Below are positions 1-9,333 of a stretch of 9,333 nucleotides of DNA, in pieces. Position numbers and translations under genes: made by a program. Each line of letters starts with the position of its first letter. The first letter of the stretch is position 1. The notes beneath the pieces were generated by a model. It had not been told where the DNA came from, searched no databases, and saw nothing but the letters and a program-made list of their open reading frames with translations. The stretch spans positions 1 through 9,333 of the forward strand of contig JAJYGW010000253.1 of the NCBI GenBank assembly GCA_021790615.1, in the 5' to 3' direction. Source of the DNA: Actinomycetes bacterium. Lineage in GTDB: Bacteria > Actinomycetota > Acidimicrobiia > Acidimicrobiales > JAKAOS01.

Positions 1-537
1 CCAGGCGAGGATCTCGGACTCGGCGAATACCGTGCAGGTCGTCGAGATGCGCACGGGCTTGTCCGAGCGCAACGCGGTGGGCCCGAGCTCGTCGAGGGGG
101 AGCTCGAGCGCCGAGGCGGCGGCGCCGAGGAAGCGGCCGGTGCCGGCCGAGCACTTGTCGTTCATCGCGAAGTCGAGGACCTCGCCGCGCTCGTTGACCT
201 TGATCGCCTTCGTGTCCTGGCCGCCCATGTCGAGCACCGTCCGCGTCCCGGGGAACATCTGGACCGCACCCCGGGCGTGGCAGGAGATCTCGGTCGTCTG
301 GGCGTCCCCGAAGGTCACCCGGAACCGGCCGTAGCCGGTCCCGATGACGTAGCCGACCCCGTCCTTCTCCTCGTCGATGTCGCCGTCGCGCAGGGCGAGC
401 TCGTAGGCCCGCTCGGCCGCGAGGGTCACGTTCGAGCCGGTGTCGATGAGCGCCCGGCCAGCGATGCGGAGGTGCTCGTCGATGATCACGGCCTTGGTCT
501 GCGTGGAGCCCACGTCCACACCTGCCGCGTAGGTCAT
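1..537 (-). CDS. bcrA: Benzoyl-CoA reductase ATPase/activase subunit, BcrA/BadF type (3' end cut by window)
   Basis: This is the electron activase of a class I benzoyl-CoA reductase. It belongs to the BcrA/BcrD/BadF/BadG and HgdC family with an ASKHA ATPase fold, which couples ATP hydrolysis to delivery of a low-potential electron to the BcrBC core. Only the first 179 codons are in the window. Visible are the N-terminal phosphate-binding strand [10 protein letters not shown] (6-15), GTGYGR (66-71), the second phosphate loop LDMGGQDTK (102-110) and [11 protein letters not shown] (126-136). Cys129 and Cys168 (in [10 protein letters not shown]) lie at the spacing of the cysteines that bridge a [4Fe-4S] cluster between the two activase subunits in HgdC. 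The GYGR, GGQDTK and CSAGTGRF wording fits BcrA better than BcrD, judged from memory. The start is ATG at 537, preceded by AAAGGAG about 9 nt away. It is the third gene of the operon, after bcrC and bcrB, as in the classical bcrCBAD order. A single-subunit HgdC-like activase is the alternative; the missing C-terminus and next gene would decide. Confidence 0.85.
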
Positions 538-562
538 TGCCCGTCTCTCCTTTCCGCTGCTC

Positions 563-588
563 GCCGGGCCGCCCGCTCCCGGCCCGGC
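563..588 (-). promoter_or_regulatory. GC hairpin between bcrB and the activase gene
   Basis: A perfect 9-bp inverted repeat (563-571 with 580-588, arms GCCGGGCCG and CGGCCCGGC) encloses an 8-nt loop in the 91-nt spacer between bcrB and the activase gene. A smaller 5-bp stem (606-610 with 615-619, GGCGC and GCGCC, 4-nt loop) lies just after the bcrB stop. Neither is followed by a U-tract on the minus strand. The larger stem ends about 12 nt before the Shine-Dalgarno sequence of the activase gene. It may be an mRNA-processing or stability element, or a partial terminator that sets subunit ratios. The repeat is plain in the sequence; its role is inferred. Confidence 0.45.
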
Positions 589-628
589 CCGGCCCCGGCA
601 TGCTCGGCGCGCTCGCGCCCGGTTCCCG

Positions 629-1957
629 TCACGACCGTGCCCCGGCGAGGAGGCGCCTCGTCTCGAGGCCCTCGAAGAACGCGTCGACACGGTTGCGCAT
701 GCCTGCCTCTGCGACGACACGGGGATCCATGTGGTCCGAGTCGATGAGCAGCGCGTTCACGTCGGCCTGCTCCAGCACCGCTCGCCGGCTGTCGGCGAGC
801 CCGGACGACACGGTCCGGCAGGACTTGATCGCGTGGAAGACGATCCCGTCGATGCCGTACGGCTCGGCCATCTCGGCGAGGACCCGGTCGACGTGGAACA
901 TGGTGTCCATCGCCGCCCGGCCGGTGACGAGCAAACCTTCGGCCAAGCTGTCGAGGGGGTGGGCGAGGTCGTACTCGTAGCCGGTGCTCCATCCGCCCGA
1001 GGCGAACCAGGTGTAGCTCGAGCCGACGAAGATCCCGCCGTGCTGGGTGAACATCTCGGAGAACTTCCGGTAGATCGGGTAGCACGGGACGCCTACGAAG
1101 GCGAGGCGGTGGCGCTCCTCGAAGGGCGTCCCCAAGCCGTGGGACGCTTTGTACTCGAGCTCCTCGACGACGTCTCGGAAGTAGTCGGCACCCTCGACGC
1201 GGCCGCGCAGGGCGTTCACCGCGCCGAGGTAGACGGTGCCGTCGGTCACCGCGTTGTACACCGCCGGGCGGGACTTGTTCAGCTCGAGCACGCGCACCCA
1301 GTCGCGGGTCATCGAGTTCGCGTGGGACATCGCCTCGACGAGGCGGTCCTGGTCGAAGCGGCGTCCGCTGACCTGCTCGCAGACCTCGACGAGCTCGTCG
1401 ACCTGGCCGCGCACGTAGGCGAGGTCGTTCTCGTAGTCGACGTGCCCGCGGCCGGGCAGGCGACCGGCCGCCCTCGAGCCGGGGATGTCGAGGGTGACGA
1501 CCGGGACGTGGTACAGCCGCTCCCAGATCTCCCCCCACTTGATGTAGGTGTTGCAGACGTTCGTCTGGAGGGCGAGATCGGGGGGCGGGATGCGGCCCAT
1601 GGGGTGGTCCCCGCCGCGCAGCTGCATGCCGACGTCGGCCTTCACGTAGCCGCACACGTCCGTGGCGAACCCGTAGCCCTCCGCCTGGTCGATGTAGTCC
1701 TCGGCGACGTGGCGCACCGCGGTCTGGAGCCCGTTGATCTCGGGCAGCACGAGGTTGAAGCCGAACGACTCGAACAGCTCGGCGGCGCTGCCCATCACGA
1801 ACACGTACGCCGCCTTCTCGCCCCGCTCGGGTCCCGAGCTCACGCGGCCGTACCACTCCTTGAACAGCCGGTTGCCTTCCCGGTTGCCGCGGCCGACCAG
1901 CTCCGAGGAGTCGAGGGTCGCCTGCGGCGCGACCTTGGGGCTCGTGTCGTTGTCCAT
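629..1957 (-). CDS. bcrB: Benzoyl-CoA reductase subunit B (BcrB/BadE/BzdO family)
   Basis: This is one of the two catalytic-core subunits of class I benzoyl-CoA reductase. With BcrC it binds the aromatic CoA thioester and [4Fe-4S] clusters and performs the two-electron ring reduction to the cyclohexadiene-carbonyl-CoA. The 442-residue product matches the family's usual length (roughly 430-440) and belongs to the 2-hydroxyacyl-CoA dehydratase D superfamily. Characteristic stretches are [15 protein letters not shown] (53-67), [12 protein letters not shown] (71-82), [17 protein letters not shown] (100-116), [16 protein letters not shown] (131-146), [15 protein letters not shown] (289-303) and [11 protein letters not shown] (376-386). 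Cys102, Cys135, Cys292 and Cys380 are candidate cluster ligands. The VCNTYIKW wording is typical of BcrB rather than of HgdA/HgdB dehydratases. An ATG at 1963 overlaps the bcrC stop (ATGA), but GGAGGT directly abuts it and lies 6 nt before the ATG at 1957, so 1957 is preferred. A methyl- or otherwise substituted benzoyl-CoA reductase is the main alternative. Confidence 0.93.
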
Positions 1958-1959
1958 CG

Positions 1960-3138
1960 TCATACCTCCGCGCCGGCGAACAGGACGTTCTCGATGAACG
2001 TCTCGAGCTGGATCTGCAGCGAGTCGAAGCTCGTCATGTTCTCCTCGAACTCGTTGACGAAGTAGGGGATCCCCTCCGCCTCGAGGGCCCGCACGTAGGG
2101 CACCTGCTCGTCGAGGCCGGGCTCGCACATCTTGGCGGCGCTGATGATGGCCGCCCCGGCGCCGGACTCGCGGATCCGGCGGAGCAGCATCTCCTCCTTC
2201 GGCTTGCGGTCGTCGTGCTGGACCGGGCTGTAGGACGAATGGTCGAGGTAGGCCGTCGCCAGGTTGGCGAGCGGGTCGCCGTCGGTGGCGACGTCCTCGG
2301 AGAGCCAGCGGAGCCCGATCAGCAGGTCGTCGTCGACGACGTAGGAGGACTGGGCGATCGTCGTCAGGAGGTCGAGGGGCGGCTGCTCGCAGAAGCCACC
2401 CTCGAAGACGATCCGCATCCGGTCCTGGGGAGCCGTCCCGCGCTGCTCGAGCATCGGGATGACCGCTGAGAGGAGGCGGTTGTGCTCCTCCCTCGGGATG
2501 CGCCCGCCGAGGGCAACGAGCACGTACGCCTCGTCCACCTGGAGGAGCCAGGGGGTCTCGCGCTTGATCTCGTAGAGGCGGCGAAGGAGGCGCCGGTTCT
2601 CGTTGTAGACGGCGATGGCCCGGCGCAGGTCGTCGTCGCTCACGGTCCTGCCGGCGATCTCCTCGACACCGCGCTGCAGGCGCTGGTACTCGCCGCGCAG
2701 GTACGTCGCCGCATGCCGTGACGTGGCGTTCTGCGGGAGGTAGAGGATCTCGCAGGGGTACGGGACGTTGCGGCCCCACACGGCCGCCAGGTTCCGGGCG
2801 GTGTCGCAGATCGGGTGGGACACGAACATCTCGAGCTCGAGACGCCCGGAGAGGGCGAGCTCGAGGGAGGTCTTGACGATCGAGCAGAGGTTCGAGCCGA
2901 AGTGCGCGTCGCCCTGGCGGGCCTCGATCGGCGCCCCGTGGATCTTGACCGGGAGCAGCCCGGCCGCCGCGACGATCTCCTCGGGGAAGTAGACCTCGAA
3001 GTGGCCGACGACCTTGCCGCCCGCCTCCCGCCACCGGCGCACCGTCGGGTAGTCGGGGTCCTCGACGAGGTCCCGGCAATCGCGGAGGAGCTCGTCGAGG
3101 GAGAGGCCCCCCCAGTCGTCCAGCACGTGCGTGCCCAT
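1960..3138 (-). CDS. bcrC: Benzoyl-CoA reductase subunit C (BcrC/BadD/BzdN family)
   Basis: This is the second catalytic-core subunit of class I benzoyl-CoA reductase, paired with BcrB. The 392-residue length is close to the known BcrC/BadD size of about 385-390. It shows the 2-hydroxyacyl-CoA dehydratase D fold: GHFEVYFPEEIVAAAGLLPV (45-64), GSNLCSIVKTSLELALSG (81-98), VSHPICDTARNLAAVWGRNVPY (split as VSHPICDTARN 106-116 and LAAVWGRNVPY 117-127), FEGGFCEQPPLDLL (245-258) and ISAAKMCEPG (332-341). Cys85, Cys111, Cys250 and Cys338 are the candidate cluster or structural cysteines. An in-frame ATG lies 32 codons further upstream (3234), but the added stretch crosses the AT-rich promoter region. 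The ATG at 3138 has GGGAGG five nt before it, so 3138 is chosen. It is the first gene of the bcrC-bcrB-activase operon, with its control region at 3139-3360. HgdB-like dehydratase function is unlikely given the paired BcrB signature. Confidence 0.92.
   Translation of the reverse strand: MGTHVLDDWGGLSLDELLRDCRDLVEDPDYPTVRRWREAGGKVVGHFEVYFPEEIVAAAGLLPVKIHGAPIEARQGDAHFGSNLCSIVKTSLELALSGRLELEMFVSHPICDTARNLAAVWGRNVPYPCEILYLPQNATSRHAATYLRGEYQRLQRGVEEIAGRTVSDDDLRRAIAVYNENRRLLRRLYEIKRETPWLLQVDEAYVLVALGGRIPREEHNRLLSAVIPMLEQRGTAPQDRMRIVFEGGFCEQPPLDLLTTIAQSSYVVDDDLLIGLRWLSEDVATDGDPLANLATAYLDHSSYSPVQHDDRKPKEEMLLRRIRESGAGAAIISAAKMCEPGLDEQVPYVRALEAEGIPYFVNEFEENMTSFDSLQIQLETFIENVLFAGAEV
1964..1969 (-). promoter_or_regulatory. 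Ribosome binding site deciding the bcrB start
   Basis: GGAGGT on the minus strand touches the first in-frame ATG (1963-1961) with no spacer. It stands 6 nt from the second ATG (1957-1955), which is a workable spacing. This favours the second ATG and leaves a 2-nt gap, rather than a 4-nt overlap, after the bcrC stop codon (1962-1960). The sequence lies inside the end of bcrC, so translation is probably coupled. Confidence 0.6.
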
Positions 3139-3166
3139 CGCACCCTCCCGGTCTGCCACTGCCGGC

Positions 3167-3197
3167 CTACTATTTTTTCTACTCACTAGCCGGTCAA
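3167..3197 (-). promoter_or_regulatory. Candidate bcrC promoter or control element (proximal)
   Basis: On the minus strand TTGACC (3197-3192) is followed after 11 nt by an A-rich block, AGAAAAAATA (3180-3171), and then GTAGG. The -35 match is good. The -10 candidate (TAGTAG, 3172-3167, spacer 19) is weak. Transcription from here would give a leader of only about 20 nt containing the GGGAGG site. The same TTGACC-N11-AG-A(n)-TA layout occurs at the promoter of the plus-strand dehydrogenase (4181-4206), which supports a functional element. Confidence 0.5.
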
Positions 3198-3198
3198 C

Positions 3199-3226
3199 TG
3201 AATTGCTCGGAGTATAGGCAATGTCA
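3199..3226. promoter_or_regulatory. Inverted repeat over the distal -10 box, candidate operator
   Basis: TGAATTGC (3199-3206) and GCAATgTCA (3218-3226) form an inverted repeat with 8-bp arms, one bulged base and an 11-bp centre. The centre contains the TATACT of the distal promoter. A protein bound here would block that -10 box. The nearby TetR-family gene is the obvious candidate ligand, but no known operator consensus was recognised. Confidence 0.4.
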
Positions 3227-3239
3227 GCATGCAAGTCCA
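3211..3239 (-). promoter_or_regulatory. Candidate sigma-70-type promoter for the bcr operon (distal)
   Basis: On the minus strand TGGACT (3239-3234) is followed after a 17-nt spacer by TATACT (3216-3211). The -10 box matches TATAAT at 5 of 6 positions and the -35 at 4 of 6. A start near 3204 would give a leader of roughly 65 nt before the bcrC ATG. It lies in the only AT-rich island between the TetR gene and bcrC. It may act as an alternative to the proximal element or in tandem with it. Confidence 0.5.
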
Positions 3240-3258
3240 GGGACCTTCGGCCCTGTGC

Positions 3259-3300
3259 GGCCGAGAATCCGTGGGGCCGAGAATCCGTGGGGCCGAGAAG
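3259..3300. repeat. 16-bp tandem repeat upstream of the bcr promoter
   Basis: The unit GGCCGAGAATCCGTGG occurs twice without a gap (3259-3274, 3275-3290), followed by a partial third copy of 9-10 bp (3291-3300). It begins 20 bp upstream of the distal -35 box as seen from bcrC. It may be a binding array for an activator, or simple slippage duplication. Sixteen bp is about one and a half helical turns, so identical sites would fall on alternate DNA faces. Confidence 0.85.
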
Positions 3301-3312
3301 AGATCGAGGGGG

Positions 3313-3347
3313 ACCGACGGTGCGGCCGTCCCGCGCGACGGGTCGGT
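3313..3347 (-). terminator. Possible terminator hairpin after the TetR gene
   Basis: A nested inverted repeat lies 14 nt past the TetR-gene stop: the outer arms are ACCGAC (3313-3318) and GTCGGT (3342-3347), the inner arms CCGTC (3326-3330) and GACGG (3337-3341) around a 6-nt loop. There is an internal bulge and no U-tract, so this is a weak call. Without termination here, tetR transcripts would read into the bcr operon. Confidence 0.3.
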
Positions 3348-3360
3348 GACCGGCGCCGAG

Positions 3361-3984
3361 TCAGCCGGTGGGCCCGAGCAGGAGCTCGATGCAGGTGCTG
3401 GCGAAGCGCTCGGGGTCGTCACGACCGGGGTCGAACCACTTGTAGACCCAGCTCGTCATCCCGAGGATGGCCTGGGCCCCGTAGCGCGGGTCGACGGGCG
3501 AGAGCGAGCCCTGGTCGACGGCGCTCTCCACCGCCTCGCGGAAGACACGGAGGTACTGCCGCTCCTTGGCGCGGATGTCCGATTCGTAGGTGGAGGCGAG
3601 GCGCGGTCGCTGGTCGAAGAAGACCGTGAAGAAGGCGGGTTCGCGCGCGACGTTCACCGTCTGGTCCCTGATGAGCGCCTCGAGGCGCCGGCGGGGATCC
3701 TCGATGAGCAGCGCGTCCGACAGGCGCGCCAGCGCCAAGGTGATCGCACGGTCGAACACCCGGTAGAGGAGCTCGGCCTTCGAGTGCACGTAGTAGTAGA
3801 GGCTGGCCTTGCGCAGGTCGAGCGCGGCAGCCACGTCGTCGAGCGAGCCGGCGTCGTACCCCTTGGCTTGGAACACCCGCGCGGCCGTCTCGACGATCTC
3901 GCTCATGCGGGCTACGAACTCCGGGCTCGGCTCTACGTTGCGTGGCCGGCCGGGGCGGCGTGGCGTGGTGCGCTCAGCGACCAT
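3361..3984 (-). CDS. TetR/AcrR-family transcriptional regulator
   Basis: This is a 207-residue ligand-responsive repressor of the usual TetR size. A basic N-terminal tail (RTTPRRPGRPRN, 5-16) precedes the helix-turn-helix domain at about 23-75. Its recognition part is GYDAGSLDDVAAAL (42-55) followed by LRKASLYYYVHSKAELL (57-73), the classic KASLYYYF-type segment. The C-terminal ligand domain (about 80-204) carries AFFTVFFDQRPRL (117-129) and GMTSWVYKWFDPG (175-187), a pattern seen in KstR2/FadR-like TetR regulators that sense acyl-CoA thioesters. That likeness is from memory. The ATG at 3984 keeps the basic tail; a GGAG lies 11 nt before it, so the ribosome site is weak, and Met27 is a possible shorter start. 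Its position between the bcr operon and the divergent dehydrogenase gene suggests it controls both, with a CoA ester from the pathway as effector. The function as a regulator is secure; target and ligand are inferred. Confidence 0.88.
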   Translation of the reverse strand: MVAERTTPRRPGRPRNVEPSPEFVARMSEIVETAARVFQAKGYDAGSLDDVAAALDLRKASLYYYVHSKAELLYRVFDRAITLALARLSDALLIEDPRRRLEALIRDQTVNVAREPAFFTVFFDQRPRLASTYESDIRAKERQYLRVFREAVESAVDQGSLSPVDPRYGAQAILGMTSWVYKWFDPGRDDPERFASTCIELLLGPTG

Positions 3985-4233: not shown

Positions 4234-5118
4234 ATGACGAACGACGGGAACGGCACGGACCGGGACGGCGGCGCCGTTGCCATCGTCGGCGGCGGCCTCA
4301 TGGGGAGCGGGATCGTGCATGCGTTCCTGCTCGCAGGTCGGCGGGTGGCCCTCGTCGAGATCGACGACGAAGCAGCGGCGGGGAGCCGCCAGCGGATCCG
4401 GGCCCATCTCGAAGAGAGCGCCCGGCGAGGCCACCTCGGTGAGCCGGTCGAAGCAGCCCTTTCCCGCGCCGTCGTGCACTCGGGCCTCGCAGGTCTCGAG
4501 GGCGAGGACGTCACCCTCGCGATCGAGGCGGTGCCGGAGATCGCGTCGCTGAAGCTCGAGGTACTCGGGGCCCTCGAGGCTGCCGTCGAGGACGCCGCCG
4601 TGGTGGCGACGAACACGAGCAGCATCGCCATCGGCGAGCTCGCAGCCGGGCTCGCCCGCCCCGAGCGCTTCCTCGGCCTGCACTTCTTCAACCCGGTGCC
4701 CGCCAGCCTCCTCGTGGAGGTCGTCGTCGGTCAGGACACGAGCGCGACGACGGTCCAGCGAGCCAGGTCGCTCGTCGAGGCGATCGGCAAGCAGGCTGTC
4801 GTCGTGAGGGATTCACCCGGTTTCGCCACGAGCCGCCTGGGCGTGCTCCTCGGGCTGGAGGCGATTCGGATGCTGGAGGAGGGGGTCGCTTCTCCCGAGG
4901 ACATCGATCGGGCGATGACCCTCGGCTACAAGCACCCGATCGGGCCGTTGCACTTGACCGATCTCGTCGGGCTCGACGTGCGCCTCGCTGTGGCCGACTA
5001 CCTCCGCTCGGTCCTCGGCGACCGGTTCGAGGCACCGGCGCTGCTGCGCGAGAAAGTCGAGCGGGGCGAGCTCGGTCGCAAGTGCGGGAAGGGCTTCTTC
5101 TCCTATCCCGAGGGGTGA
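4234..5118 (+). CDS. 3-hydroxyacyl-CoA dehydrogenase, HBDH/FadB2-like
   Basis: NAD(P)-dependent oxidation of a 3-hydroxyacyl-CoA to the 3-oxoacyl-CoA, in the cytoplasm. The 294 residues match single-domain 3-hydroxybutyryl-CoA dehydrogenases. The Rossmann loop is IVGGGLMGSG (17-26), with acidic VEIDD (41-45) at the end of the second strand favouring NAD. The catalytic pair is His150 in GLHFFNPVP and Glu162 in LLVEVV, twelve residues apart as in human HADH (His158, Glu170). NTSS (127-130) is also present. The C-terminal helical domain carries DSPGFATSRLG (193-203), YKHPIGPLHLTDLVGLD (232-248) and GRKCGKGFFSY (281-291). Ser200 replaces the Asn (human Asn208) usually found in PGFxxNRL. The start at 4234 has GGGAG at 8 nt and its own promoter; the open frame upstream to 3229 crosses the promoter and is not coding. 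It is divergent from the TetR gene and convergent with the hydratase at 5156. It may oxidise a linear or cyclic hydroxyacyl-CoA formed downstream of ring reduction; the substrate is not readable from sequence. Confidence 0.9.
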   Translation: MTNDGNGTDRDGGAVAIVGGGLMGSGIVHAFLLAGRRVALVEIDDEAAAGSRQRIRAHLEESARRGHLGEPVEAALSRAVVHSGLAGLEGEDVTLAIEAVPEIASLKLEVLGALEAAVEDAAVVATNTSSIAIGELAAGLARPERFLGLHFFNPVPASLLVEVVVGQDTSATTVQRARSLVEAIGKQAVVVRDSPGFATSRLGVLLGLEAIRMLEEGVASPEDIDRAMTLGYKHPIGPLHLTDLVGLDVRLAVADYLRSVLGDRFEAPALLREKVERGELGRKCGKGFFSYPEG

Positions 5119-5155: not shown

Positions 5156-5938
5156 TCAGGGGTGACGCCCCGTCCAGACCGGCGGTCGCTTCTCCGCGAA
5201 GGCGAGCGCTCCCTCGCGGGCGTCCGTCGAGCGGCTCACGACAGCGGCCGCGTCGTCGTTGATCCGCCACCCGGATGCCTCGTCGGTGTCGGCGGCGGCG
5301 CGCAGCACGGCCTTGGAAGCCCGTACCGACAGCGGTGCGTTGGCGGCGATCACCTCGGCGAGGTCCAGGGCCGCGTCGAGGGTCTGGTCCCGGGGCACCA
5401 CCCGGTTGACGAGCCCCAGGGCACGGGCCCGCTCGGCGTCGATCGGCAAGCCGGTGAGGGCGAGCTCCAGAGCGACGGCGAGGGGCAGGCGCTTCGGCAG
5501 CCGCACGAGCCCGCCGGCCGCAGCGAGCAGTCCCCGCGTCACCTCGGGGATGCCGAAGGTGGCGTGGTCGGCGGCGACGGCGAGGTCACAGCTGAGGACG
5601 ATCTCGAACCCTCCGGCGACTGCTACCCCGTTGACCGCCGCGATGAGCGGCTTACCGAAGCTGCGCCGGGTGATGCCGGCGAACCCCCCCGAGATCGAGG
5701 AGGTCTCGGGCATCTCGCCGGCGGCGAATGCCTTCAGGTCCATTCCGGCGCAGAAGGCCCGATCGCCCGCCCCGGTGAGGATGACCACGGCCACCCCGTC
5801 GTCGGTGGCGAGCTCGTCGAGCGCGGAGGCGATCCCCCTCGAGACCGCGCCGTTGATGGCGTTGCGCTGGTCGGGCCGGTTGATCGTCAGGATCTCGACG
5901 GATCCACGACGCTCGCGCAGTACTGCGTGGTCGGACAC
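5156..5938 (-). CDS. Enoyl-CoA hydratase, crotonase family (canonical active site)
   Basis: Hydration of a 2-enoyl-CoA to the 3-hydroxyacyl-CoA, in the cytoplasm. The 260 residues match the crotonase family. Motifs in order are NRPDQRNAINGAV (20-32), LTGAGDRAFCAGMDL with the oxyanion-hole segment (54-68), NGVAVAGGFEIVLSCDL (103-119) and FGIPEVTRGLLAAAGGLVRLP (split as FGIPEVTRG 128-136 and LLAAAGGLVRLP 137-148). Glu112 and Glu132 are 20 residues apart and correspond to the catalytic Glu144/Glu164 pair of rat mitochondrial hydratase, so hydratase chemistry is expected. The start is GTG at 5938 with GGAGG 8 nt before it; another GTG two codons upstream sits too close to that site. It is the last gene of the minus-strand run, 56 nt after the ligase. 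In context it may hydrate a cyclic dienoyl- or enoyl-CoA (Dch- or BadK-like role) or a linear product. The substrate cannot be told, and general fatty-acid EchA function is possible. Confidence 0.9.
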   Translation of the reverse strand: MSDHAVLRERRGSVEILTINRPDQRNAINGAVSRGIASALDELATDDGVAVVILTGAGDRAFCAGMDLKAFAAGEMPETSSISGGFAGITRRSFGKPLIAAVNGVAVAGGFEIVLSCDLAVAADHATFGIPEVTRGLLAAAGGLVRLPKRLPLAVALELALTGLPIDAERARALGLVNRVVPRDQTLDAALDLAEVIAANAPLSVRASKAVLRAAADTDEASGWRINDDAAAVVSRSTDAREGALAFAEKRPPVWTGRHP

Positions 5939-5994
5939 GGGCACCTCCTCCTTCTGCTCCCCTCGCTGCTCCGCCCGCGCCACTCGCGCCGCCC

Positions 5995-7605
5995 TCACCT
6001 CGCCGGCGCGTCGGCCGGTCCGCCCTCCGGCGGCCAGCCGGTGCGCAGGACGTGGCGCTGGAGCTTGCCCGAAGGGGTGCGGGGCAGCGCGTCGACGAAG
6101 GTGACGCTGCGCGGGACCATGTACGCGACGAGGTGCGCCCGCACGAGCTGGAGCAGTGCCGCCCCGAGCTCTGCGGACGGGGCTTGTCCGGGTGCAGCGA
6201 CGACGAAGGCCTGAAGGCGGGTCGCGCCGATGGCGTCGGGGAGGGCGACGACGGCCGCTTCCTCGACGGCAGGGTGGCCCAAGAGGATCCCCTCGATCTC
6301 GGTGGGTGCCACGGAGATGCCACCGACCATCTCGAGGTCGTCCTTTCGACCGTGGTAGTGGACGTCGCCGTCCTGGCCGAGGCTGACCCGGTCGCCGGTG
6401 CAGAGCCAGTCGCCGACCAGCGTCCGGGCGTTCTCCTCGGGCCGGTTGTGGTAGCCCACCATGATGGTCGGACCTTTCACCCACAACGTCCCCACCTCGC
6501 CGGGGGGCACGGGGTCGGCGAGCTCGTCCCGGACGCTCAGCTCGTAGCCGGGCATCGCCTTGCCCAAGGTCCCCGGGCGGCAGTTCCCGAGGGTGTTGGA
6601 GATGAACGGGGGCCCCCCCACCTCGGTCGCCCCGAGCCCGTTCAGCACGGGTGCCCCGAGGAAGGCGGCGGCGCGCTCTTGGAGCGCCGGGGCAAGCGCT
6701 TCGCCGGCCGAAAGGCAGACGCGCAGCGAGGCGAACTTGCTCGCGTCCCCCTCGGCGAGGAGCACGGCGTAGAAGGTCGGGACGGCGAACAGCACCGTGG
6801 GCCGGACCCTGGCCACGAGCTGGGAGACGGCCTCGACGGTGGGCAGCTCCCGCTGGAGGACCGCAGCGACGCCGGTCGACAGGACGCACAGCAGGCTGTT
6901 GCCGAGCCCGTAGGAGAAGTAGGCCCGCGACACCGAGTACAAGACGTCGTCGGGGGCCGGCTCGAAGGTCGCCCTGAGCACCGCTGCGTGGTGGGCGACA
7001 TCGGAGTGCCGGTGGAGCGCGAGCTTGGGCTTGCCGGTGGTGCCCGAGGTGTACAGGCCGTAGAGGAGAGCGCCGGGCGGCAGGCTGGCGGGGGGCGCAG
7101 GAGGCTGGGAGGGTCCGAGAGCCTCGAGCTCGTCTGCGCCGAGCGTCTCGACGCCGGAGAAGTGGCCGGCGAGCTCGTCCTCGCACACGGCGAGCGTGGG
7201 CTTGGCGTCGGCGACCATGAAGGCGTGCTGCTTCGAGCCGAGCCTCGGGTTGACCGGCAGCGCGATGGCACCGAGGCGGGCAGCGCCGAGGAAGGCGAGG
7301 ACGAAAGCGATCCGGTCCTGGGTGGCAATGAGGACAGGCCGGCCCGCGCACGCGCCACGCTGCTCCAGGAGGGTGGCCGACGACGCCACTGCGGCCGCGA
7401 CCTCCTCGTAGCTCCAGCGCCGGTCGCCGTCGAGGTAGGCGACGTGTGTGAGCCATCCCGACGACCTGGCGAGCTCCTCCAGCCACACGGTCACGTTGTG
7501 GGCGGGCGAGCGGTCGTGACGCGGGAGGGGTGAGCCCCCGGGTTTCACCTGCAGTGCCGTCGCGCCGAGCTGGCTGTCGGGCCCCCTCTTGGTGCCTCGG
7601 AGCAC
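5995..7605 (-). CDS. Acid:CoA ligase of the benzoate-CoA ligase type (ANL superfamily)
   Basis: ATP-dependent activation of a carboxylic acid to its CoA thioester via an acyl-adenylate. The 536 residues are close to benzoate- and 4-hydroxybenzoate-CoA ligases (about 510-530). The phosphate-binding motif is YTSGTTGKPKLALHRH (185-200); the A5 motif is NGLGATEVGG (322-331). A7/A8 are WLCTGDRVSLGQDGDVHYHGR (split as WLCTGDR 400-406 and VSLGQDGDVHYHGR 407-420) and KDDLEMVGGISVAPTEIE (421-438); Asp404 and Arg420 contact the adenylate. Catalytic Lys514 is in RTPSGKLQRH (509-518). The short Asp-Asp-Leu-Glu-Met-Val-Gly-Gly hinge and the LHRHSD after the P-loop resemble the benzoate-CoA ligase family, judged from memory. 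The start is GTG at 7605, preceded by AAAGGGGGG. The gene lies 40 nt after the crotonase at 7646 and near a benzoyl-CoA reductase, so benzoate, a substituted benzoate or an alicyclic acid is the likely substrate. Exact specificity is unknown. Confidence 0.88.
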   Translation of the reverse strand: MLRGTKRGPDSQLGATALQVKPGGSPLPRHDRSPAHNVTVWLEELARSSGWLTHVAYLDGDRRWSYEEVAAAVASSATLLEQRGACAGRPVLIATQDRIAFVLAFLGAARLGAIALPVNPRLGSKQHAFMVADAKPTLAVCEDELAGHFSGVETLGADELEALGPSQPPAPPASLPPGALLYGLYTSGTTGKPKLALHRHSDVAHHAAVLRATFEPAPDDVLYSVSRAYFSYGLGNSLLCVLSTGVAAVLQRELPTVEAVSQLVARVRPTVLFAVPTFYAVLLAEGDASKFASLRVCLSAGEALAPALQERAAAFLGAPVLNGLGATEVGGPPFISNTLGNCRPGTLGKAMPGYELSVRDELADPVPPGEVGTLWVKGPTIMVGYHNRPEENARTLVGDWLCTGDRVSLGQDGDVHYHGRKDDLEMVGGISVAPTEIEGILLGHPAVEEAAVVALPDAIGATRLQAFVVAAPGQAPSAELGAALLQLVRAHLVAYMVPRSVTFVDALPRTPSGKLQRHVLRTGWPPEGGPADAPAR

Positions 7606-7645: not shown

Positions 7646-8473
7646 CTACCGTCCCTGCCACGCGGGGGGGCGCTTCTCGTTGAACGCCGCGTGGAACTCG
7701 GCGTGGTCGGCGCTCTTCATGAGCAGCGCCTGGGTCATCGCCTCGAGCTCGATGGCCGCCGAGAGCGGCATGTCGAGCTCACGCGACAGCAGTGACTTGG
7801 TCTGGGCGTAGGCGAAGGACGGCCCGCGGGCGAGCCGTTGGGCGAGGGCCGCCGCGGCAGCGTCGAGCTCGCCGTCCTCGACGAGCTCGGACACGAGCCC
7901 GTAGCGATCAGCGGTCTCGGCGTCGATCGTGTCGCCGAGCATGAGCAGCTTCGTCGCACGTCCGAATCCCACCAGGCGCGGCAGGAGGTAGGCCGAGCCC
8001 ATGTCGGCCCCTGCGAGGCCGACCTTGGTGAACAAGAAGGCGAAGCGGGCCGAGCGGGTGAGGAGGCGGAAGTCGGCGGCCAGGGCGATCACCGAGCCGG
8101 CGCCCGCTGCCATCCCCTGGATCGCTGCGATGATCGGCACGGGGCACTCCCGCATCGCCTGCACCACCGCGCCGGTCATGCGGGTGAAGTCGAGCAGCTC
8201 GTCCGGGCGCATCTTCAGCAGCTCACCGATGATCTCGTTCACGTCGCCGCCCGAACAGAACGCCTTCCCCTCGCCGCGGATGACGAGGGCGCGGACGTCG
8301 TCGCGCTGGGGGAGCTCCCGCAGGAGGTCGCGGAGGTCTGCATAGCTCTCGAAGGTGAGGGCGTTCAGCTTCTCGGGCCGGTTCAGCGTGACCGTGGCGA
8401 CCCGATCCTCGAGGGCGAACTCGAAGTGCTTCCAGGCCGACGTGGGGCTGACCGAACCGCGGAACGGGCTCAT
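7646..8473 (-). CDS. Crotonase-family protein with atypical active site
   Basis: A 275-residue enoyl-CoA hydratase/isomerase-superfamily member. Motifs are NRPEKLNAL (31-39), RGEGKAFCSGGDVNEIIG with the oxyanion-hole CSGGDV (66-83), QGMAAGAGSVIALAADFR (119-136) and FLFTKVGLAGADMGSAYLLP (146-165). Aligned by eye to the canonical neighbour, the two catalytic glutamates become Val128 and Thr149. Asp157 (GADMG) instead takes a position like Asp204 of rat dienoyl-CoA isomerase. The fold and thioester binding are clear; simple hydration by the usual Glu pair is not expected. Isomerase, dienoyl-CoA, ring-cleaving or lyase chemistry are options. FCSGGDV and TKVGLAGADMG resemble, from memory, crotonases clustered with aminobenzoate or salicylate CoA-ester catabolism. 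The ATG at 8473 has GAGGAG 8 nt before it. The 130-nt spacer to the acyl-CoA dehydrogenase holds an 11-bp direct repeat (8490-8500, 8508-8518) and no clear promoter. Confidence 0.85.
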   Translation of the reverse strand: MSPFRGSVSPTSAWKHFEFALEDRVATVTLNRPEKLNALTFESYADLRDLLRELPQRDDVRALVIRGEGKAFCSGGDVNEIIGELLKMRPDELLDFTRMTGAVVQAMRECPVPIIAAIQGMAAGAGSVIALAADFRLLTRSARFAFLFTKVGLAGADMGSAYLLPRLVGFGRATKLLMLGDTIDAETADRYGLVSELVEDGELDAAAAALAQRLARGPSFAYAQTKSLLSRELDMPLSAAIELEAMTQALLMKSADHAEFHAAFNEKRPPAWQGR

Positions 8474-8603: not shown

Positions 8604-9333
8604 TCACCGCAGGAGCTCCCGGGCGATGATCGTGCGCTGGACCTCCGACGCGCCCTCGTAGATGCGCGTAGCCCGCACCTCCCGGTAGAGGTGCTCGAGA
8701 AGGTGGCCCCGGACCAGCCCCCGGGCGCCGTGGAGCTGGAGAGCCCCGTCGATGATCCGCTGGGCCGCCTCGGTGGCGAAGACTTTGGCCATCGCCGAGG
8801 CCCGGGTGACTGCGTGGCGTGTCGCTCCTGCGTCGTAGGCGGTGGCGGCGGCCCGAACGAGCAGCCGGGCGGCCTCGAGCTCCGTCGCCATGTCGGCCAG
8901 CGAGTGCGCCACGGCCTCCAGGTCGGCGAGCCTGCCGCCGAATGCCTCTCGCTCCTGGGTGAAGGACACCGCGGCGTCGAGCGCGGCGCGGGCCATCCCG
9001 ACGGCGAAGGCTCCGACACTCGACCGGAACAGGTCGAGGGTGGCCATGGCGACCCCGAAACCCCGGTCGACCTCGCCGAGCACGTCGTCGGGGCCGACCT
9101 CGACGCCGTCGAGGAGGAGCCGACCGATCGCGTGGGGCGCGAGCAGCTCGAGGGGCTCCCCGGTGCACCCGGGTCGCTCGGCCGGAAGCGCGAAGGCGGT
9201 GACGCCGCGAGCGCCGCCGCCGGCGGTGGTCCGGGCGAAGATCGTGTAGACGTCGGCTTCGGGTGCGTTGGAGATCCACAGCTTCTCGCCGTACAGCCGC
9301 CACCCCTCGCCGAAGGGCTCGGCTCGCAACGCG
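8604..9333 (-). CDS. Acyl-CoA dehydrogenase (5' end beyond window)
   Basis: FAD-dependent alpha,beta-dehydrogenation of an acyl-CoA, passing electrons to electron-transfer flavoprotein. About 243 C-terminal codons are present out of the family's usual 380-400, so the N-terminal helical domain is missing. Visible are the end of the middle beta domain (GEKLWISNAPEADVYTIFAR, ending about 77 codons before the FAD-contact segment) and the C-terminal helical domain with FRSSVGAFAVGMARAALD, REAFGGRLADLEAVAHSLAD, LQLHGARGLVRGHLLEHLYR and RIYEGASEVQRTIIARELLR. The glutamate in IYEGAS is the catalytic base position of short- and medium-chain enzymes. The usual Gln of the FGxxLxxxQ stretch is Glu here. 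No start codon is in the window; the TTG near 9329 is internal to the middle domain. It is first of the visible minus-strand run. Near a benzoyl-CoA reductase it could act on a cyclic acyl-CoA (AliB/BadJ-like), a glutaryl/pimelyl-type product, or ordinary fatty acyl-CoA. Confidence 0.9.
   Translation of the reverse strand, partial: ALRAEPFGEGWRLYGEKLWISNAPEADVYTIFARTTAGGGARGVTAFALPAERPGCTGEPLELLAPHAIGRLLLDGVEVGPDDVLGEVDRGFGVAMATLDLFRSSVGAFAVGMARAALDAAVSFTQEREAFGGRLADLEAVAHSLADMATELEAARLLVRAAATAYDAGATRHAVTRASAMAKVFATEAAQRIIDGALQLHGARGLVRGHLLEHLYREVRATRIYEGASEVQRTIIARELLR

Follow-up and report, generated by a model that had tools for sequence, protein, structure and literature searches.

Among the ATP-dependent class I aryl-coenzyme A (CoA) reductases, the described system closest to the locus reported here is 3-methylbenzoyl-CoA reductase MbdONQP (PDB 9g87, 9gai, 9gal and 9gba), whose source we take to be Azoarcus sp. 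CIB. Other points of comparison are Thauera-type BcrABCD, Azoarcus-type BzdNOPQ and the three-gene 4-hydroxybenzoyl-CoA reductase HcrCAB (PDB 1rm6, presumably from Thauera). The regulator of the Mbd locus, MbdR, is a TetR-type protein (PMC4424350). Here we analysed a 9333-base stretch (the window, meaning the whole stretch of DNA under analysis) of contig JAJYGW010000253.1 from an Actinomycetes bacterium, which carries an mbdNOQ-like cassette on its minus strand. Judged from its genes, this is very probably the reductase-encoding portion of a locus for the anaerobic degradation of aromatic acids in an uncultured actinobacterium, itself probably a facultative anaerobe.

Subtype of the reductase core

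We assigned the catalytic core, from its sequence, to the methylbenzoyl-CoA reductase (MBR, Mbd) branch of class I enzymes because its bit scores to MbdN, MbdO and MbdQ are far above those to Bzd proteins or 2-hydroxyacyl-CoA dehydratases. Against PDB entries, the mbdN-like (BcrC-type) catalytic subunit (1960..3138, minus strand; 392 amino acids) scored 527.9 bits with MbdN, 132.7 with HadC and 104.5 with BzdN, while the mbdO-like (BcrB-type) subunit (629..1963, minus strand; 444 amino acids) scored 495.7 with MbdO, 116.1 with HadB and 103.8 with BzdO. E-values to the solved MBR subunits (1.2e-147 and 1.9e-157) were far beyond chance, and MbdN and MbdO were the nearest enzymes of solved structure (59% and 51% identity, compared with 27–28% to Bzd and Had proteins). 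The mbdQ-like activase (BcrA family; 1..537, minus strand) runs past the left edge, leaving the N-terminal 179 of ~270 amino acids visible; this part (PF01869, 142.7 bits) gave 261.4 bits with MbdQ, 143.8 with the HadBC activator, 136.1 with HgdC and 113.9 with MbdP. A different, MbdP-like activase is encoded in a same-species metagenome-assembled genome (MAG), G001, and all four subunits match those of the Azoarcus enzyme one to one. The three frames in the window are free of stops, each with PF06050 or PF01869 far over cut-off, and those of the two catalytic subunits overlap by 4 bases. The original prediction that bcrC, bcrB and an activase are intact holds as far as the cut activase can be seen.

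Curated models for the other subtypes were missed. With the Thauera-type models TIGR02260 and TIGR02263 the window reached 205.7 of 486.6 and 256.0 of 421.2 bits, and with TIGR03190 and TIGR03191, for Azoarcus-type BzdNOPQ, 110.3 of 453.8 and 113.2 of 448.6. Genuine Azoarcus MbdO and MbdN also miss the Thauera-type pair (221.0 of 486.6 and 230.5 of 421.2), and each of the four curated Bcr/Bzd models that genuine MBR catalytic subunits match has a cut-off above their scores, so that the branch is probably undercounted in surveys relying on such models. A Bcr or Bzd subtype was dropped because these cut-offs were missed and the Mbd matches were far stronger; the class I reading proposed originally therefore stands, but with Mbd rather than Thauera-type Bcr as its subtype. 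The locus shares with BcrABCD and BzdNOPQ the family, an ATP-dependent activase pair and most cluster cysteines, and differs from BzdNOPQ in one of the four O cysteines, which is replaced there. Twelve plasmid records yielded distant family members only (best 27.3% identity) and no Bcr reference.

A maximum-likelihood tree of N plus O (28 taxa, 800 columns, LG+F+G4) was then built from the window, 21 of 22 relative loci (without L043), the genomes G060, G401 and G085, and three PDB-derived references, whose rows are partial and come from local alignments. All MBR-type sequences, including the Azoarcus enzyme, formed one clade against HadCB and BzdNO (SH-aLRT/UFBoot 100/100), within which the Azoarcus enzyme was weakly placed (74/60). 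Grouping with 2-hydroxyacyl-CoA dehydratases had been named beforehand as a possible refutation, and the window did not group with HadCB (UFBoot 100 against HadCB and BzdNO). Conserved cysteines of N and O are common to the window and MbdN/MbdO. In the BcrB-like protein, with numbering from the ATG at 1963, Cys104, Cys137, Cys294 and Cys382 are conserved in 28, 28, 27 and 28 of 28 aligned sequences; these are the four residues first listed as 102/135/292/380, two less in each case. Cys85, Cys111 and Cys338 of the BcrC-like protein are kept in 28/28 each in the same alignment. A further residue, N-Cys250, looks like a mark of the MBR branch, since it is absent only from HadC and BzdN and occurs in the other 26 of 28 sequences, every MBR-type row. 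The activase Cys129 and Cys168 (from the ATG at 537) and the BcrB-specific string NVCNTYIKW were likewise present as first described.

Operon layout and gene neighbourhoods

G001 holds the window at 99.43% identity across all 9333 bases, and in it the minus-strand operon continues past the left edge (coordinates of locus L015). The MbdP-like second activase (18900-19715; 263.7 bits with MbdP versus 176.2 with MbdQ) is followed, its end 10 bases before the next start, by the gene of an FrhB-type protein (17582-18889), then by genes for a ferredoxin (17307-17594; Fer4_7, 35.2 bits), hcrC (16837-17304), hcrA (14423-16840) and hcrB (13444-14448). A second activase and a ferredoxin had been sought left of position 1 in the original prediction, and both lie there in this same-species genome. 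With the curated 4-hydroxybenzoyl-CoA reductase models, which are the best models for hcrA and hcrB, the C, A and B proteins scored 176.0 of 257.8, 772.2 of 994.6 and 291.0 of 404.6 bits; they are thus like Thauera HcrCAB in gene number but all under its cut-offs. The best PDB match of HcrB was 1rm6_B (204.8 bits, the next 102.6), with aligned cysteines in the extra loop, which we take to be a cluster-binding loop. The FrhB-type protein resembles FrhB of the F420-reducing hydrogenase (3zfs and others) and the FrhB-type chains 8riu_B and 8rja_E in its N-terminal iron-sulfur part and in PF04432 (98.0 bits) and PF04422 (73.3 bits), both over cut-off, so that FrhB_FdhB_N and FrhB_FdhB_C domains are both present; it differs in sitting in an aryl-CoA reductase operon. 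We had considered that this protein might replace a ferredoxin and dropped the idea because a separate ferredoxin gene is present. No hydrogenase gene was recognised beside frhB on reading the neighbouring open reading frames (ORFs).

The resulting order, mbdNOQP-frhB-fdx-hcrCAB, is identical in four same-genus MAGs and, together with the actinobacterial host, sets the locus apart from Azoarcus MbdONQP. Within the fetched stretches of the 22 relative loci, to which all neighbourhood counts refer, the order N-O-Q-P is found in 21 (L043 starts inside O at a contig start, and P of L040 is cut by a contig end), across Actinomycetota, Acidobacteria, Gemmatimonadetes, Elusimicrobia, Planctomycetota and a deltaproteobacterium. 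HcrCAB lies near the cassette in 7/22 loci (L025-L030 and L044), and frhB with a ferredoxin gene in 4/22 (L025-L028). Had- or Oah-type homologs accompany 10/22 (L029-L034, L036, L039, L041 and L043), and this neighbourhood ties the MBR branch, at the level of gene content, to aryl-CoA dearomatisation. Beside the L036 cassette both curated models were passed (Had 394.7, cut-off 338.7; Oah 536.3, cut-off 464.5), while two other proteins fell below them: Had of L031 (257.3) and, next to mbdN in L029, an Oah-like protein (218.5). In G401, a one-contig genome of the same class, Had and Oah homologs adjoin the cassette (55% and 67% identity).

Proposed pathway and competing readings

Read from these genes, degradation would start with a CoA ligase forming an aryl-CoA, from which HcrCAB would take off the 4-hydroxyl group where one is present. 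MbdN/O with the ATP-hydrolysing MbdQ/P pair would reduce benzoyl-CoA, or a substituted derivative of it, giving a cyclic diene, and the ferredoxin encoded between frhB and hcrC would carry low-potential electrons to both reductases. The ring would be opened by a hydratase, a short-chain dehydrogenase (SDR) and an Oah-like hydrolase; an acyl-CoA dehydrogenase, hydratases and a 3-hydroxyacyl-CoA dehydrogenase would complete beta-oxidation. The TetR protein may repress the locus until aryl-CoA is present. The two NarG proteins of G001 (1621.5 and 1611.3 bits against a cut-off of 1084.2) and its single COX1 would fit a facultatively anaerobic host.

Several points weigh against this reading. The extensions beyond the window edges are taken from G001 and relatives, and activity in this lineage is a prediction from genes. 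Pathway-specific models gave scores under their cut-offs for the CoA ligase, HcrCAB, the Oah-like protein and both SDRs, and hcrC was matched best by a model of a glyceraldehyde dehydrogenase subunit (190.5 versus 176.0 bits). The tree holds no Thauera-type Bcr sequences. Among incomplete MAGs, NarG is over cut-off in 3/10 genomes, not in G009 or G010, and COX1 in 6/7, not in G009. Ferredoxin could also be reduced by POR-family enzymes without F420, as such genes occur in 9/9 genomes including G001. Finally, G060, an MBR-positive genome of another family, has neither an Oah-like gene nor an ipdB-like match at the limits used, which counts against strict linkage of these genes to MBR.

We also weighed whether the core is a 2-hydroxyacyl-CoA dehydratase, or an unknown radical reductase or dehydratase, misread as an aryl-CoA reductase. 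Both groups share the Pfam family HGD-D, several among the relatives listed were deposited as 2-hydroxyacyl-CoA dehydratase, and the curated BCR cut-offs were missed; yet genuine MbdN/MbdO lie below the same cut-offs, the scores to MbdN/MbdO are about fourfold those to HadC/HadB, and N-Cys250 occurs in 26/26 MBR-type rows and in neither HadC nor BzdN. Neither a single homodimeric activase nor subunits nearest HadB/HadC were found; two distinct activases and, in the branch, Hcr-, Had- and Oah-type neighbours were, and we regard this misreading as very unlikely. An MBR acting on another aryl-CoA (methyl-, hydroxy- or aminobenzoyl-CoA) rather than benzoyl-CoA is a less remote prospect, though still an unlikely one: the nearest characterised enzyme is named 3-methylbenzoyl-CoA reductase in its PDB entries, and the crotonase at 7646-8473 passes NF006107, a family known from 2-aminobenzoyl-CoA clusters. 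The adjoining HcrCAB, however, would predict a benzoyl-CoA intermediate, and in L036 an MBR-type cassette lies beside curated benzoyl-CoA pathway genes. That the contig was mis-binned from a proteobacterium or another phylum we consider extremely unlikely. In the window genus the trait has so far been seen in MAGs only, and it is sporadic (MbdN-like at E <= 1e-100 in 4/396 genomes drawn from the phylum); but the operon order shared by four same-genus MAGs and a related cassette in the one-contig genome G401 argue otherwise, and a glycosyltransferase encoded on the contig at a distance of ~18 kb from the window places that contig in its genus, with orthologs at 80-82% identity in same-genus G002, G003, G006 and G008 and at 98% in G009.

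The source of the electrons is the least certain point of the aromatic-acid degradation scheme. The FrhB-type protein may pass electrons from F420H2 to the ferredoxin, a possibility to which we give somewhat less than even chances. The gene starts directly behind mbdP in G001 with the ferredoxin gene next, and the operon copy looks dedicated because a second, general FrhB-type paralog, with 40-43% (about 42%) identity to it, lies elsewhere in 8/12 actinobacterial genomes; cofD is over cut-off in G001, G008 and G010 and in 11/19 MBR genomes in all. About evenly balanced, in our estimate, is the alternative that the FrhB-type protein works in reverse (reduced ferredoxin to F420) or serves HcrCAB only, with POR-type enzymes feeding the ferredoxin, as 2-oxoglutarate:ferredoxin oxidoreductase does in Thauera. 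POR-family genes are, as noted, ubiquitous in the genomes searched, frhB of L028 lies behind hcrB, across the hcr genes from the cassette and not after mbdP, and frhB was not seen in the fetched stretch of 18/22 loci. The fuller proposal is accordingly offered as tentative: F420H2, through the FrhB-type flavoprotein and the dedicated ferredoxin of the same cluster, might drive both HcrCAB dehydroxylation and MbdNOQP dearomatisation, with an AibAB/IpdAB-like pair taking a ring-opening or decarboxylation step. As separate observations, the general FrhB paralog lies at G001:C19:3150-4250 (homologs in G008, G009, G010, G060, G062, G063 and G069), and a second FrhB-type copy at G008:C77:17600-18563 matches in two pieces (75-76%). 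L088 (G063:C134:56001-66000) and L089 (G001:C66) hold a cluster resembling indolepyruvate/2-oxoacid:ferredoxin oxidoreductase, CoA-transferase and ligase genes, named from reading the sequences except for PF01558; in G063 the contig that bears it is equal in length to the contig with the L029 cassette.

Set against existing records, part of this is familiar. Of 7997 candidates scored in a protein search, 3456 were retained as members of the family, some of them outside the MBR branch; in the listed best 120 of 3456, the named ones are mostly "benzoyl-CoA reductase subunit B" or "2-hydroxyacyl-CoA dehydratase", and several come from Actinomycetota, Acidimicrobiales and Chloroflexota. MBR-type enzymes can thus end up in databases under the name 2-hydroxyacyl-CoA dehydratase. 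PMC12008989 and PMC9686372 mention bcrBC for UBA5794 actinobacteria and dehydratase-like proteins for Anaerosomatales, respectively. Of the proposal that this locus broadens where anaerobic dearomatisation is encoded, the encoding in a high-GC actinobacterium stands, whereas the novelty is smaller, because such reductases are already in databases and bcrBC has been mentioned for other actinobacteria (PMC12008989). Among the papers listed in literature searches, judged by titles and abstract starts, none showed an F420-linked benzoyl-CoA reductase or an operon of such layout. What is new is the layout of the operon, with a candidate electron route through F420, and a lower pathway of non-classical type. 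If the reading is right, high-GC Gram-positive bacteria, some of them also with nitrate and oxygen respiration genes, encode ATP-driven dearomatisation, and drawing on F420 for the step of anaerobic aromatic breakdown that costs most energy would be new.

Lower pathway, regulation and host

The rest of the window (GC content 69-73%; a tRNA scan of it found none) is occupied by candidate lower-pathway and regulatory genes. Transcription on the minus strand runs, from right to left, through an acyl-CoA dehydrogenase (8604..9332, C-terminal part, running past the right edge; PF00441), an enoyl-CoA hydratase family protein (7646..8473; NF006107, 417.9 bits, cut-off 330), an acyl/aryl-CoA ligase near the benzoate-CoA ligase family (5995..7605, start uncertain; TIGR02262, 332.2 bits, cut-off 375.3; NF004716 FadD22, 332.5, cut-off 1228), a second enoyl-CoA hydratase family protein (5156..5944, start uncertain; PF00378; NF006100, 327.4 bits, cut-off 282), the TetR-family regulator and the reductase genes. 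A 3-hydroxyacyl-CoA dehydrogenase (4234..5118, plus strand; PF02737/PF00725) is divergent. The full-length acyl-CoA dehydrogenase of G001 had cyclohexane-1-carbonyl-CoA dehydrogenase as its best model (NF043006, 219.9, cut-off 650). To the right of the window in G001 follow the remainder of this gene, an SDR (best model BadH, 253.8 of 431.2) and another ORF of TetR type, the second in this region, recognised by codon composition alone.

The NCBIfam model of the ring-opening hydrolase (Oah) gave no match over cut-off in 7 genomes, and an Oah-like variant was therefore sought and found. In G008, sdr-acad-echB-lig-echA is followed on the same contig by two genes of the CoA-transferase family, an SDR resembling BadH (277.7 of 431.2) and an Oah-like gene (217.3 bits, cut-off 464.5); in G001 the same four genes lie on another contig. 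The Oah-like gene (E <= 1e-60) occurs in 4/61 relatives, exactly the genus members with MBR (G001, G008, G009 and G010). The linkage search for the CoA-transferase-fold pair covered its second, ipdB-like gene, of which close copies (90-100%) were confined to these same four genomes; at E <= 1e-20 it was matched in 26/61 relatives, the other 22 at only 31-38%. In L030, L044, L045 and L046 (4/22 loci) and in G085 the pair comes either immediately after the cassette or a few genes further on. Foldseek with the A-subunit model (moderate, pLDDT 66.1) ranked AibA first (36% identity), ahead of IpdA (28-31%) and glutaconate CoA-transferase (24%), and the B-subunit model (poor, pLDDT 54.1, hence unreliable) placed the same families on top; the likeness to AibA/AibB and IpdA/IpdB is thus one of fold, in low-confidence models. 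By sequence, without residue-level structure alignment, the seven B subunits read have a GGSG/GGTC stretch without Glu. An IpdAB ring hydrolase had been our first thought for the pair and was weakened by the first rank of the decarboxylase AibAB. AibAB catalyses 3-methylglutaconyl-CoA decarboxylation (PMC7756340). From these models we propose either ring opening or glutaconyl-CoA decarboxylation for the pair, without choosing between them. The MBR-linked pairs noted lie at L085:10510-12191 and L046:12897-14500 and in L044, L045, L030 and L092.

The TetR-family regulator (3361..3984, minus strand; TetR_N and TetR_C_24 over cut-off) adjoins the cassette, as first predicted, and orthologs at 71-98% occur in 6/22 loci (L025-L030). 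A TetR-type regulator is a feature shared with the Azoarcus Mbd locus; the window protein differs in that no entry named MbdR was among its 50 PDB matches. Alignment of the window with 4 loci identified a conserved block, GACCGGCTAGTGAGTAGAA, in the region upstream of mbdN (3139..3360), which is kept in the genus with one change in L027 and nearly kept in L028. We regard it as a candidate promoter or TetR-binding site; scanning for palindromes upstream of tetR and mbdN did not bring out any one convincing operator.

The actinobacterial host suggested originally is borne out by relatives at 94-96% identity in MAGs named Actinomycetes bacterium YP2.bin54, YP2.bin47 and LSA5.bin114, together with the flanking glycosyltransferase described above. 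Some MAG isolate codes presumably denote acid mine-water sites. PF06050 was matched in 7/61 relatives, of which 5 are MBR-type by score and cassette (G001, G008, G009, G010 and G060). In the genus, 4/13 members searched carry MBR, some of the nine negative ones being incomplete (completeness 58-92%). In the MBR tree the actinobacterial sequences are spread over separate branches, namely the window clade together with G060, Ilumatobacter together with G401, and the Acidimicrobiia, HyVt-587 and G085, which suggests acquisition more than once, several backbone nodes being weak.

A small protein of 70-98 amino acids with a CxxC-type motif was also noted (L031:8655-8951, L020:13687-13896 and L029:7233-7487, with matches in L032, L033, L035, L037, L038, L039, L041 and L043). 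Searching loci of the window genus at E 0.01 gave no match to it, and in 10/11 MBR loci it lies directly 3' of mbdP, the exception being L029, where it flanks the cassette at the opposite end. At L036:15991-18295, close to the MBR locus of an Acidobacteria MAG, ORFs resembling Cas2 and Cas4-Cas1 were recognised by reading only.

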